A DNA stretch of 25,271 nucleotides from Cytauxzoon felis (Eukaryota > Apicomplexa > Aconoidasida > Piroplasmida > Theileriidae). The number at the start of each line of letters is the position of its first letter. Position 1 is the stretch's first letter. The position numbers were made by a program, and so were the translations under genes. Below, one piece after another: positions 1 to 25,271 of this stretch. The notes under the pieces were generated by a model. It worked only from the letters and a program-made list of their open reading frames with translations, made no database searches and was not told where the DNA came from. Where the stretch lies: NCBI GenBank assembly GCA_020283715.1, contig JAIQCW010000351.1:1-25271 (forward strand), written 5' to 3'.

Positions 1-2
1 AT

Positions 3-491
3 TTATGCGGCGCCAGCGGCAGCTGCATCGTGTTTCCATGCACCGGCTTTAGCGAATGGTGCACCCTTACATACTAAGTCAGAGAACAAGTGCTTGCATG
101 GGTGACTAACACCAGCCTTAAGACCGACAAGAGCAGTTTCAAAGAAGTGAGCGGGTAATACATCAAACAAGAATCCTAGTCTGAAGTGAGCTGCTGATCC
201 ATCACTGAATAAAACTTTGACCAAGTAGAATCCGTGGAATCCACCAAAGAATACTTCAGCAACGTGAAGACCTGCTGGGGCATCCCATAGGGCAACACCA
301 CTTACACTCAAATGCTTAAGGGCATGACCTTGGAGTACTAAAACATGATGGCAAAAATCCTTATGAAGTGCTTTCAAATCTACTAAAGCACTTACAGCAT
401 GTGGGTGTGCCAAGTCAATGAAAAAGTATAAACATCGAATATTACATCTACGTGAAGTTATATTAACATATTCCACTTGACATCGTAGCAT
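3..491 (-). CDS. Unrecognised GC-richer reading frame, possibly an exon
   Basis: An open frame of 162 residues runs from a Met at 491 to a stop at 3-5. The frame stays open further upstream, to 746, but that part is translated repeat. Codon use is clearly GC-richer than the AT-rich genes nearby. The product is rich in His, Ala, Phe and Leu and ends in WKHDAAAAGAA before the stop. I see no signal peptide and recognise no domain. It lies antisense to, and immediately upstream of, the visible exons of phenylalanyl-tRNA synthetase alpha, so it would sit within that gene's intron if the tRNA synthetase is intact. It could be a terminal exon of a minus-strand gene, a gene remnant, or chance open sequence; the steady composition favours real coding. 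The true start is not determined. Confidence 0.35.
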   Translation of the reverse strand: MLRCQVEYVNITSRRCNIRCLYFFIDLAHPHAVSALVDLKALHKDFCHHVLVLQGHALKHLSVSGVALWDAPAGLHVAEVFFGGFHGFYLVKVLFSDGSAAHFRLGFLFDVLPAHFFETALVGLKAGVSHPCKHLFSDLVCKGAPFAKAGAWKHDAAAAGAA

Positions 492-735
492 ATGTTCCCA
501 CTCGCCGTGGTGGCCTTCTCTATTTACTTCCCCCTCCGCTTCCCTGAGATCAGCTATGGGTTCCACCTGAGGTCCAATGACTATACTTGTGCCACGATCT
601 CTGGGAGTGGCTATACTCTTTAGAGATAGGTAATTAGAAGGGCCGTCTGCAGGACGAAGATAAGGTGGAGTAGAATACAAGGTTGTAACCTCAAGTGGAG
701 AGCTGTCTGTAAGACTAAGAGAGGATGATTGGAGA
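470..735. repeat. Modular repeat cluster
   Basis: Holds, in order: the CCAC/GTGG hairpin left half (498-510), the constant joint TATTTACTTCCCC, the right half CTTCCCTGAGATCAGC, the spacer CCACCTGAGGTCC, the right half with GCCAC..GTGGC arms, and two diverged GTCT/AGAC-type halves. It lies directly upstream of the first visible tRNA synthetase exon and therefore probably inside an intron. Confidence 0.85.
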
Positions 736-769
736 TAATGTATCATATAATATCATTAATAATATATAG

Positions 770-1725
770 GAGATGGATAGTTGTTGTTATATAGAGTCTA
801 GTTTTTGGTGTTTTGATGCGATGTATATTCCACAGCAGCATCCTGCACGTGATATACAGGATACATTTTTTACGGAGGTAATGATACGAATACAAAAAAT
901 ATTAACTTTATTAGGTCCCATGTAGGGCTAATATTGAGTATATGGACGAAGAGTATATTAAGAATGTATCAATAGCACATAGTGATGGATCATTATATGA
1001 AAGTACTGGATGGAGATATAAATGGTATAGGGAACTAAATATGTAGTGATTAAATTTATTAATTTTAGGGATTTAAATGAATCACTTAGACTTGTTGCAA
1101 GGACACATATAACACCTTGTACAGCTAGACTATTAGTATCAATTGTCAAAAAATATAAAGAGGTATGTTTATCATATGAATTAGATTAGTGAAATTATGG
1201 TGTATTTTATCCCCATATTATATTTGTAAATTTTATATTAATCCTATATTTAGGGAAAAGATATTATGAATAAATCATATTTTACAATGGATAAAGTATT
1301 TAGAAATGAAGCATCTGATTCTACACATCTATCTGAGTTTCATCAAGTATATTTCTAATCATAAAATAATCTAATCCTTATTCCAGGTTGAAGGGCTCAT
1401 GATCGGAGATCGAATAGGATTGGATCATTTAATGGGGATATTAGATACATTTTATAAGTCTATCGGTATAAATAAATTACGTTATAAACCAGCATATAAT
1501 CCATACACTGAACCATCAATGGAAATATTCGGTTTTCATCCACATTTAAATAAATGGATCGAAGTCGGTAATTCCGGTGTATTCAGACCTGAAATGTTAC
1601 TACCCATGGGATTACCAAAAAATATATTCGTACTAGGATGGGGATTATCTGTAGAACGGCCTACCATGATCAAATACAACTTCAATAATATACGAGATCT
1701 CATCGGATGTAAATATACACCATAG
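770..1725 (+). CDS. FARSA: Phenylalanyl-tRNA synthetase alpha subunit, 3' exons
   Basis: Catalytic core of the cytosolic (alpha-beta)2 enzyme that charges tRNA-Phe. Five exons join in one frame: 770-877, 915-1024, 1069-1162, 1254-1346 and 1387-1725 (247 aa); introns are 37, 44, 91 and 40 nt with GT..AG ends. Diagnostic class II synthetase sequence is seen: IESSFWCFDAM followed by QQHPARD, then ARTHITPCTARLL, YFTMDKVFRNE (motif 2 region), LSEFHQVEG, the phenylalanine-pocket stretch KPAYNPYTEPSMEIF, and VGNSGVFRPEMLLPMG followed by GLSVERPTMIKY (motif 3). About 250 N-terminal residues expected for the eukaryotic alpha subunit are not in the window. The first exon seen begins after a TATAG acceptor at 765-769, so the 5' exons should lie left of position 1 across an intron of at least 769 nt, or the gene is truncated. 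The C-terminus ends early, shortly after RDLIG. Confidence 0.93.
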
Positions 1726-1754
1726 AAGGAAGAAGTTAACCATCTTGACATTAT

Positions 1755-1825
1755 ACAGTAGATTGTCTTACAGACAAGTCTTCTATTTACTTCCACCACG
1801 ATTCCTAGCAATCAACTATGGGTTT
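1755..1825. repeat. Degenerate modular repeat copy
   Basis: A weak match just after the tRNA synthetase stop: a TTACAGACAAG left half, then TCTATTTACTTCC, then a decayed right half ending in ATCAACTATGGGTT. It reads as an old, eroded copy of the window-wide repeat. Confidence 0.55.
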
Positions 1826-23437: not shown

Positions 23438-23479
23438 ATGTATATAGATTCAACAATGGTTGATGGATATCGTGAAAGT

Positions 23480-23935
23480 GGAACCGATAACATAACCACA
23501 AAATCACCACCTGGAAGCGATCTACGGGAGCTGGAAGGGGAAGTAAATAGAAAAGGCTCCACGCCTAGTGGAAGACAAGCCGGAGATAATGTAGACAACA
23601 CCATTGGTCATGTAGACAGCTCTCCACATGAGGTTACAACCAGTGTTCCACTCGCCGTGGAGGCTTCTTCCAATTACCTATCCCTAAAGGGTGATGCCAC
23701 TCCCGGAGATCGTGGCGAAGAATCCGAGACGATCCATGGGAGTCGAGGTGAAGTAAATAGAGAAGCCACCACGGCGAGTGGAAAGAAGAGTACTACAGGA
23801 CCTCGAGTGGAACCCGTAGCTGATCTCAGGGAAGCGGAGGGACAACTAAATAGAGGAGGCTCCACGCCGAGTGGGACAGAGGTTGTACTAGAAGGTGAAG
23901 GTAGAAATTGGACCTCGAGTGGGGATGTTGTAAAA
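23480..23935. repeat. Longest modular repeat array, in an open frame
   Basis: Five to six units in a row: GATCTACGGGAGC right half, CCACGCCTAGTGG half; CCACTCGCCGTGG half with the GCCAC..GTGGC right half; the rare GATCCATGGGAGTCG right half with CCACGGCGAGTGG; CTGATCTCAGGGAAGC right half with CCACGCCGAGTGG; spacers throughout. The frame that continues into the sphingomyelin-synthase-like gene has no stop from 23438 onward. Confidence 0.87.
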
Positions 23936-23974
23936 GGATTTAAGGATGACAATGGATATAATCATGATATTGGT

Positions 23975-24979
23975 ATGGGGATATTGATAGATGATTCGAT
24001 ATTGGATGTTGATGATATTGTTGATGAGTGTAGGATGATATTGATGAATGTATTAAAGAGATTGATGATAATATTGTTATTATTTATATCATCTATTTAT
24101 GTACAGGGTTTATTGATGTTGATGAGTGATTTATATTATTTAAAGAATCCATCTATACCATTACAGGATCGTTTACATAAATTATTAAGACCTATAGGTG
24201 AGATTATAAGTATAAAGGTTGGTAATATAATGATAAGTATATTAGTAATAATATCATCATTAAGGATATTATTATTTACTCCATTAATATATTCATTAAA
24301 TATAGTTATAAGATTATTTTTTTTAGAATCTATATTATATTTTATACGTGGTATATTTATATATATGACAACTATACCATCACCTAATCCATATTGTATA
24401 CCATATGATTGTAATGGTACACATTTAGAATATATATATGAAATTATTAAAGGTTATTTTGGATATAGAGAATCATGTACAGATTTAATTATATCTGGAC
24501 ATACAATGTCAACATTAATATTTACTATTATATTATTACAAAATATATCATCTATTATATTTAAAATATGTATTTTATTATATATTTTATTTATATATAT
24601 TATTATCATCGCTACAAAATTTCATTATACTATTGATGTACTCTTTGGTATATTAATCTCTACATCTATATATTATTATTATTATTATAATATCATTAAT
24701 CATAATAATAAATCTAATTATAATATCATCTCATATTATCTATCACAAATAGAACAAATACCATCAAGAATTATAATTACTAATAAATTACAACAATTAC
24801 AACAAACATATCAATATAATAATCATATCATCAATAAATATTTTCATTGGTTCGGTATCAATCAATATAATCAAATCTATACCGGTTATACACACTTTAA
24901 TACCTATTACTTTAAAGAAATACACTCACAATTATCAATAATCTATAACAATCTCAAGAAGAAAATCACAATCAAATAA
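23975..24979 (+). CDS. Sphingomyelin-synthase-like (PAP2-C) enzyme
   Basis: Integral membrane enzyme expected to move a phospho-head group between a glycerophospholipid and ceramide. I start at the ATG at 23975 (334 aa). The same frame is open back to an ATG at 23438, but those 179 extra residues are mostly translated modular repeat. Family marks: a conserved segment RGIFIYMTTIPSPNPYC (the R..TT.P.P motif); CTDLIISGHTMST, matching the C-G-D-x3-S-G-H-T catalytic motif with its first His; and KFHYTIDVLFGI, matching H-Y-T-x-D-V with the second His and the Asp of the triad. About six hydrophobic helices are visible (near residues 20-45, 78-100, 103-130, 175-195, 200-220, 230-245). Gly in C-G-D is Thr here. 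The C-terminal 80 residues are hydrophilic, Gln/Asn-rich. The coding strand is G-rich at the 5' end (18 G, no C in 24001-24060) and C-rich at the 3' end. Confidence 0.82.
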   Translation: MGILIDDSILDVDDIVDECRMILMNVLKRLMIILLLFISSIYVQGLLMLMSDLYYLKNPSIPLQDRLHKLLRPIGEIISIKVGNIMISILVIISSLRILLFTPLIYSLNIVIRLFFLESILYFIRGIFIYMTTIPSPNPYCIPYDCNGTHLEYIYEIIKGYFGYRESCTDLIISGHTMSTLIFTIILLQNISSIIFKICILLYILFIYIIIIATKFHYTIDVLFGILISTSIYYYYYYNIINHNNKSNYNIISYYLSQIEQIPSRIIITNKLQQLQQTYQYNNHIINKYFHWFGINQYNQIYTGYTHFNTYYFKEIHSQLSIIYNNLKKKITIK

Positions 24980-24994
24980 TCATTATAATCCATT

Positions 24995-25116
24995 CGAGGT
25001 TATATACACCTGAAGTCCAATCCAACTCGTCTCCCACTCGCCGTGGTGGCCTTCTCTATTTAATTCCCCCCTTCGCTTCCCTGAGATCAGCTGCGGGTTC
25101 CACTCGAGGTCCAGTA
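24995..25116. repeat. Modular repeat cluster
   Basis: Spacer variant, CCACTCGCCGTGGTGG half, TATTTAATTCCCC joint, CTTCCCTGAGATCAGC right half, spacer CCACTCGAGGTCC, leading directly into the 205-bp repeat as at 8440. Confidence 0.85.
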
Positions 25117-25271
25117 CTAATCTCGACGAGATACGTCTAAAGTGACGAAAACCATGTTTGGAAGGATATCTCAATGAATACAATATGGAATGAAGTGAGG
25201 ATGAGTAAACTCAATACAATCATCAAATTCCTTTTCAATGAAGTATTAACATCAGAAATTCATTCAATATT
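25117..25271 (+). repeat. 205-bp interspersed repeat, copy 3 of 3 (cut by window end)
   Basis: Starts with AATCTCGACGAGATACG and follows copies 1 and 2 through GGAAGGATATCTCAATGAA, GGAATGAAGTGAGGATGA and TACAATCATCAAATTCC to the last base. Confidence 0.86.

Follow-up and report, generated by a model that had tools for sequence, protein, structure and literature searches.

Contig JAIQCW010000351.1 of the Cytauxzoon felis assembly (25,271 bp; hereafter, the window) raises the question of why its top strand changes from C-rich to G-rich at clusters of a dispersed G-rich repeat, whichever way the neighbouring genes run. A previous reading of this DNA from its letters alone (the sequence-only reading) had noticed the change and had offered bidirectional replication initiation, as at bacterial origins, or strand-asymmetric mutation or repair spreading from the repeats as possible causes. 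To address this question, we have analysed 202,955 bp of a genome of 8,623,106 bp in 181 contigs: the window (contig C178) and ~178 kb besides it, consisting of C4:1-120000 and pieces of C1-C3, C20 and C100. The C1-C3 pieces had been selected via the repeat motif itself and C4 from a listing of the motif, while C20 and C100 were taken blind. This sample contained 107 clusters, with both flanks usable in 100, and all results given below refer to it unless the window or the whole genome is named. We found that most clusters are palindromic cassettes, whose flanks bear what is best read as the mark of strand-specific mutation acting outward over some 300-370 bp on each side; as its cause we tentatively propose recombination between the cassettes.

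The eight C:G hand counts made in the sequence-only reading were all reproduced exactly. Cassette elements occur in 16 repeat blocks of the window. For 15 of these blocks both flanks are present, and in 13 of the 15 GC skew was higher on the right flank than on the left. The same was observed in 93 of the 100 sample clusters, 74 of which had a negative left and a positive right flank, confirming that most clusters have a C-rich left and a G-rich right side. The mean skew jump was 0.457, compared with -0.088 (sd 0.032) at random positions (300 sets, z = 17), and TA skew changed in the same direction in 83 of the 100 clusters. When the strongest switches in the sample were located, 43 of the 60 strongest from C to G lay within 100 bp of a repeat block, a zone comprising 15% of the scanned positions, as compared with 4 of the 60 strongest from G to C. 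The other 17 C-to-G switches (e.g. C4 near 14729, 38576, 74101 and 75141, and the window near 7795) had no block within that distance, and perhaps mark lost cassettes or ordinary variation. Within the window (1-25271), composition changes locally and repeatedly instead of once from end to end.

Both flanks of a cassette change in the same way when each is read on its outward strand, the one whose 5′ to 3′ direction leads away from the cassette: this strand has lost A and C and gained G, fourfold degenerate sites included, in any gene direction. With all DNA similar to the repeats in blastn (E up to 0.01) masked, GC skew on the outward strand was, in successive bins from 10 to 460 bp, 0.26, 0.28, 0.20, 0.15, 0.10, 0.05, 0.02 and 0.01. 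Masked outward-strand composition was A.301, C.114, G.205 and T.380 at 60-110 bp, and A.352, C.152, G.146 and T.351 at 600-900 bp. Outward GC skew was positive on 170 of the 202 cluster sides. Genome-wide word counts, made without repeat masking, gave 107 TTGATG against 28 of its complement CATCAA at 120-150 bp outward of the motif, and 44 against 62 at 430-460 bp. The loss of A showed a weak preference for A or T preceding the A, which is confounded by composition and was not used as evidence. Decayed repeat copies were rejected as the origin of the flanks, since the skew survives the masking of similarity to the arms and is present at fourfold sites; so were long decayed palindromes, for there is hardly any register-specific match between the flanks.

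The claim that neither gene direction nor coding explains the switch was borne out by three tests, built on 108 mechanically called open reading frames (ORFs) in place of annotated genes. When clusters were sorted into eight neighbour contexts, the right flank exceeded the left in most clusters of each, together 100 of 107: 14/15 between two minus-strand ORFs, 9/9 between two plus-strand ORFs, 26/27 with no ORF near and, in the weakest context (a plus-strand ORF on the right only), 7/9. Fourfold sites at a distance of 10-110 bp had an outward-strand GC skew of +0.67 (0.42-0.87) where the outward strand is the coding strand and +0.72 (0.60-0.83) where it is the template. Outward-strand frequencies at these sites were A.26-.36, C.03-.04 and G.15-.26, compared with A.35-.43, C.10-.11 and G.12 beyond 1 kb, and beyond 310 bp the outward skew ranged from -0.12 to 0.15, all intervals including zero. 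The most direct test is given by blocks inside one open frame. Because skewed non-coding DNA can extend chance ORFs, it was limited to blocks in frame within ORFs of at least 300 aa, a threshold that counts the cassette-encoded part too; 13 of the 15 such blocks, in 11 ORFs, were testable. Coding-strand skew at fourfold sites of these single ORFs was -0.67 upstream and +0.57 downstream of the block, and the downstream value was the higher in 12 of the 13. The average skew aligned on repeat copies, a check proposed in the sequence-only reading, was not flat in the sample (100 clusters) and did not follow gene orientation. Transcription along the host gene was rejected as the cause, since both strands behave alike. 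Next to the cassettes, base composition shifts at all three codon positions.

Whatever the size of the gap between clusters, the skew has faded out by 300-400 bp. In a fit that used 44,226 letters, G or C, from 96 gaps, a ramp of fixed length came to 367 bp with a negative log-likelihood of 30,333, and a Gaussian did slightly better (30,329). Competing fits did less well: a fork model running linearly to the midpoint had 30,511, or 30,503 once a constant was included, a ramp whose length follows the gap had 30,496, and a fit with none had 30,574. The fork model was therefore worse than the fixed length by 178 log-likelihood units, or by 170 at equal parameter number, differences that are overstated because the fit treats letters as independent. 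Ramp lengths fitted per gap class were 279, 421, 428 and 265 bp, with no trend. As the range is fixed whatever the distance to the next cluster, simple replication-fork polarity was rejected: the skew ends after ~300-370 bp in gaps of 300 and of more than 2000 bp alike. The parallel with bacterial-type origins, from which skew would be expected to reach up to the next origin, was not supported.

The size of the cassette also matters. The skew becomes stronger as the facing arm contains more elements (t 3.4), and the element number of the opposite arm has an independent effect in the same direction (t 2.8), which indicates that the whole cassette contributes, as expected if homology length drives recombination. 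In the window, the two failing blocks, 1742-2237 and 3673-4094, carry one element orientation only; a third one-oriented block, 14417-14504, passes. The sequence-only reading had excepted a gene with a FAINT domain (PF04385, present in the window) and a membrane-protein gene, and had described the two as GC-richer or G-rich family genes. Both genes do adjoin the two failing blocks; since skew grows with element number in both arms, weak cassettes would be the likelier reason. The FAINT domain and the size of the genome together point to a piroplasm.

The clusters are made of short G-rich elements, such as GGACCTCARGTGGA, with 1137 forward and 1116 reverse exact copies genome-wide. By extrapolation from C4, 120 kb of which hold 47 of the 107 clusters, the genome contains roughly 3,400 clusters, and neighbouring clusters in the sample lie a median of 1,548 bp apart. 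Elements run minus then plus in 82 clusters, minus only in 10, plus only in 10 and in a more complex order in 5. As 89 of the 94 orientation changes are minus-to-plus, most clusters are head-to-head pairs of arms, that is, dyad-symmetric palindromic cassettes. A genome-wide pattern for the head-to-head order matched at 9 places, a count that we do not use as evidence. The main arm kinds are X (ACCCGTAGCTGATCTCAGGGAAGCGG...) and Y (GCCACGATCTCCGGGAGTGGC...), and the 89 head-to-head pairs comprise 70 of X with Y, 12 of X with X and 7 with other or untyped arms. The centre between the arms has a median of 42 bp, is at most 24 bp in a quarter of the pairs and reaches ~250-280 bp in many X-with-X pairs. 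These long centres are conserved (window 8383-8592 and 25060-25269 are 79% identical over 210 nt) and recur elsewhere.

Arms are strings of small hairpins. Among 224 copies of the loop GATCNNNGGGA, Watson-Crick pairing at the three closing positions holds in 219, 218 and 218 copies, respectively, and the stems vary between copies and are of several kinds. Wobble pairs at these closing positions show no strand bias (6 GT, 4 AC), and a structured RNA of one strand was rejected; no Rfam family matched the window at the gathering threshold. The modules are discrete (stems GCT/AGC, AGC/GCT, CAC/GTG and GAC/GTC around the loop) and appear shuffled between arms like exchangeable parts. Five kinds of downstream hairpin showed no significant association with the core kinds, of which the three most frequent were used (chi-square p 0.21, 164 arms, leaving out 31 arms of the same core kinds with no recognised hairpin), and this free combining points to exchange of modules between copies.

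Long ORFs contain about one cassette in four, in the sense orientation and in frame. Of the 107 clusters, 28, some of them single elements, fall entirely within ORFs of at least 130 aa, and 22 of the 24 head-to-head in-ORF clusters with typed arms stand in the sense orientation, which is Y reversed and then X along the gene. Inside ORFs, the distance from arm to arm is divisible by three in all 25 sense pairs and in 2 of 3 antisense pairs, a figure partly forced by the open frame itself; outside ORFs the remainders 0, 1 and 2 occur 15, 12 and 15 times. In-ORF cassettes have no stop codons in the sense frame, and are most simply read as translated. In an ORF for the largest subunit of RNA polymerase III (C2:17447-19699, loci L013 and L014), residues 1-337 align to RPC1 of 7a6h_A, which we take to be a human structure, at 289-626, and residues 477-720 align to RPC1 631-877, so that 139 residues, largely cassette-encoded, replace four. 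In the window, the 5′ part of a PAP2_C-domain ORF (23402-24979, plus strand), presumably sphingomyelin-synthase-like, consists of repeat arms of both orientations in one open frame. When 7,998 candidates were scored for a PAP2-type ORF, just one remote relative emerged. Other cassettes lie outside long ORFs, in intergenic DNA or in introns, for instance in the LCCL-domain gene, whose LCCL match (15942-16403) scored 22.3 bits, just below the cut-off of 22.6. Splice sites, where read by eye, fall outside the cassette. The intron-donor-like GTATGT points into the block at 20 of 214 outer block edges, where ~8 were expected, and out of it at 16 of 214, so that some cassettes may nearly fill an intron.

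Repeat blocks and hairpin module examples in the window, with GC skew of the left and right flanks
Feature	Positions	Strand	Skew left	Skew right	Remarks
Palindromic cassette, left arm X reversed, right arm Y	493..733	.	-0.11	+0.26	Elements minus-minus-minus, then plus-plus-plus-plus; open in minus-strand ORF 3-752
Block, reversed elements only (minus-minus-minus)	1742..2237	-	0.00	-0.15	Exception to the rule
Block, forward elements only (plus-plus)	3673..4094	+	+0.42	-0.26	Exception; AT-rich repeat at 3727-3870
Cassette, X arms head to head	5826..6378	.	-0.35	+0.32	264-bp centre
Cassette	8296..8785	.	-0.19	+0.35	280-bp centre
Cassette, X arms head to head	9824..10128	.	-0.13	+0.14	
Cassette, X and Y arms	11229..11546	.	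-0.06	+0.34	
Cassette, left arm Y	12571..12816	.	-0.43	+0.75	
Small remnant, one forward element	14417..14504	+	0.00	+0.40	
Cassette in apparent intron	16412..16670	.	-0.64	+0.51	Minus-strand LCCL-domain (FNPA-like) gene; splice sites by eye
Cassette, Y arms	17101..17477	.	-0.33	+0.46	
Two-armed cassette	18066..18338	.	-0.17	-0.12	Weak case, barely passes
Cassette	19123..19653	.	-0.62	+0.16	252-bp centre
Large cassette	21382..21789	.	-0.57	+0.47	7 reversed and 6 forward elements
Cassette in frame	23481..23947	+	-0.10	+0.69	5′ end of PAP2_C-domain ORF
Left part of a further block	25003..25271	-			Ended by contig end, no right flank
Hairpin module examples	12595-12659, 16473-16537, 21653-21730				

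The window also carries a separate AT-rich repeat family of 144 nt, distinct from the cassettes, with copies at 3727-3870 and 13547-13690 (85% identical) and similar words, seen by eye, near 6000-6100.

Among the options of the sequence-only reading, strand-asymmetric mutation spreading from the repeats fits best, the switch being tied to the repeats. A strand-specific process (A>G and C>T on the outward strand) radiating from the cassettes is well supported as far as its mutational nature is concerned, since the shift is strong at synonymous sites. As its driver we infer recombination, because modules are exchanged between copies and both arms contribute to the skew; the complete account, mutation together with this cause, is one that we hold tentatively, at somewhat less than an even chance. 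A broken cassette would copy from another cassette, and the invading 3′ end would be extended through the donor cassette and out into the donor's unique flank. The donor strand displaced there would be the outward strand, and its A and C would be open to deamination, which matches the polarity seen. Alternatively, error-prone refilling of the resected outward strand might leave the same mark.

Several observations weigh against this proposal. At human meiotic hotspots, A>N and C>N changes are described on the 3′-ended resected strand (excerpts of PMC7615360), a pattern that gives the opposite polarity, so that the donor-side or the refilling version is required. Cluster sides with no elements have little skew (mean 0.05 +/- 0.06, n 16), where pure donor run-off would lead one to expect some on both sides. 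At fourfold sites 110-210 bp away, outward skew was 0.25 on the coding strand and 0.70 on the template, a gene-direction component that the model leaves unexplained. GC content is scarcely higher near the cassettes (.29-.32 up to 210 bp) than at greater distances (.28-.30), so that GC-biased conversion has left no clear trace. Both arms of a cluster have the same hairpin kind in 19 of 58 cases, with 13.7 expected (p 0.07), so that concerted evolution within a cluster was not shown. The effect of cassette size could instead reflect age. Finally, the breaks, the recombination and the single-stranded DNA of this proposal are themselves deduced.

How do other explanations compare? If the cassettes were replication origins, with leading and lagging strands mutating differently, the C-to-G switch would have the right polarity and would be independent of genes. 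However, the skew ends at ~300-370 bp in all gap sizes and the linear-to-midpoint fork is 178 log units worse, so that only a version confined to the first few hundred bases survives. A median spacing of ~1.5 kb is also very dense for origins, and we consider this explanation quite improbable. Somewhat better placed, while still unlikely, is the idea that cassettes are bidirectional starts of short transcripts, the non-template strand displaced in outward R-loops being the outward strand, which then mutates. The polarity is right, the length is plausible, facing-arm size matters, and G and T enrichment is known on non-template strands (in the part of PMC10030826 cited); yet the skew is equally strong where the outward strand is the template of the host ORF and within single ORFs, so that an antisense transcript would be needed at each of these, inside exons included. 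The opposite arm matters too, and the centres are so short that a promoter would hardly fit outside the arms.

Double-strand breaks in the cassettes followed by damage on the resected 3′-ended strand, as at human meiotic hotspots, might be invoked, since hairpin-forming inverted repeats are reported to induce breaks (extract of PMC3855049) and strand-asymmetric flanks are known at hotspots (PMC7615360, in part). This process predicts A>N and C>N on the inward strand, but they were found on the outward strand, which makes it very unlikely. It is highly doubtful, too, that cassettes insert preferentially where composition already changes from A+C-rich to G+T-rich. The 17 block-free switches seem to speak for such a preference, but at 0.71 to 1.05 they have about the size of switches in the reverse direction (mean -0.80 for the strongest 60 from G to C), which makes them look like background; moreover, strength grows with cassette size and fourfold sites in ORFs are skewed. 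The least probable explanation is selection on RNA or DNA folding, with left and right flanks able to pair. Matched flank pairs were predicted to form slightly stronger duplexes than shuffled ones (mean -42.3 vs -40.0 to -41.4; 98 pairs), but the longest inverted match was 8.08 vs 7.88 in shuffled pairs (sd 0.14), indicating little register-specific complementarity, and selection on synonymous sites at thousands of loci seems implausible.

With regard to enzymes that might move the cassettes, a genome profile search found RVT_1 matches in one open frame only, of 1010 aa (C56:73024-74436), which also matches Telomerase_RBD; the sole reverse-transcriptase frame is most likely telomerase. The same search gave no match to rve in the genome and none to Helitron_like_N, for which the control also remained without a match; other transposases were not searched for. 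In the portions cited, a survey of 64 apicomplexan genomes (PMC9141347) reports no class II transposons, no transposable elements in four piroplasms and LINE-like ones in some other apicomplexans. Its candidates for miniature inverted-repeat transposable elements (MITEs) were discarded as likely false positives, so that elements such as these cassettes could have been overlooked. Among the matches listed in a search of open PubMed Central papers, we found no description of these cassettes or of such composition footprints in flanks.

If recombination between cassettes is indeed the cause, a strand-specific mutation process can be read out of one genome, at thousands of replicate loci whose centre, direction and dose are known, and in degenerate codon positions; which strand is exposed or resynthesised during recombination of dispersed repeats then becomes a directly testable question. 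Because composition shifts at all three codon positions beside cassettes, protein phylogeny and gene finding would be affected. A broader proposition, put forward with more reserve still, is that several thousand modular protein-coding palindromes have invaded a nuclear genome and recombine so often that each would be a source of mutation (A>G and C>T along the outward strand, over the neighbouring 300 bp), reshaping codon use as well as amino-acid content in many genes. If so, the skew would be a permanent record of recombination run-off, with a polarity unlike that of classical break hotspots.

Several known systems share features with the cassettes. In yeast mitochondria, GC-rich hairpin elements and byp elements are scattered in AT-rich coding DNA; the cassettes share with them hairpins in such DNA, but they belong to a nuclear-type genome with telomerase and, inside ORFs, have no stops in the sense frame. 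A C-to-G switch on the top strand is common to cassettes and the GC skew of replication origins, from which the cassettes differ by their fixed short range and ~1.5 kb spacing. Human meiotic hotspots (as described in excerpts of PMC7615360) likewise have a point flanked on both sides by asymmetric substitution, A>G included, but with opposite polarity and over ~2 kb, whereas the range at cassettes is ~0.3 kb and the effect is visible in base composition. The introner elements of Amoebophrya and others, according to the cited part of PMC7789003, are repeated, bear inverted repeats and lie in introns; cassettes also have inverted repeats and intronic copies, but about a quarter of them lie in ORFs, in sense and in frame. 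Rickettsia palindromic elements (RPE) are in-frame palindromes in unrelated protein genes and encode a conserved peptide; the excerpts of the review cited (PMC10969869) do not mention strand asymmetry in their flanks. Like RPE, cassettes lie in frame in unrelated protein genes and would encode a conserved peptide in one frame; unlike RPE, they occur in an apicomplexan-type genome of 8.6 Mb, in thousands of copies, with exchangeable modules, and also outside ORFs. By analogy, then, the cassettes resemble RPE, the closest known kind, in the way they work; their host is a eukaryote and we do not assign them to the bacterial RPE families, so that a eukaryote would carry protein-coding palindromes of an RPE-like kind in large numbers.

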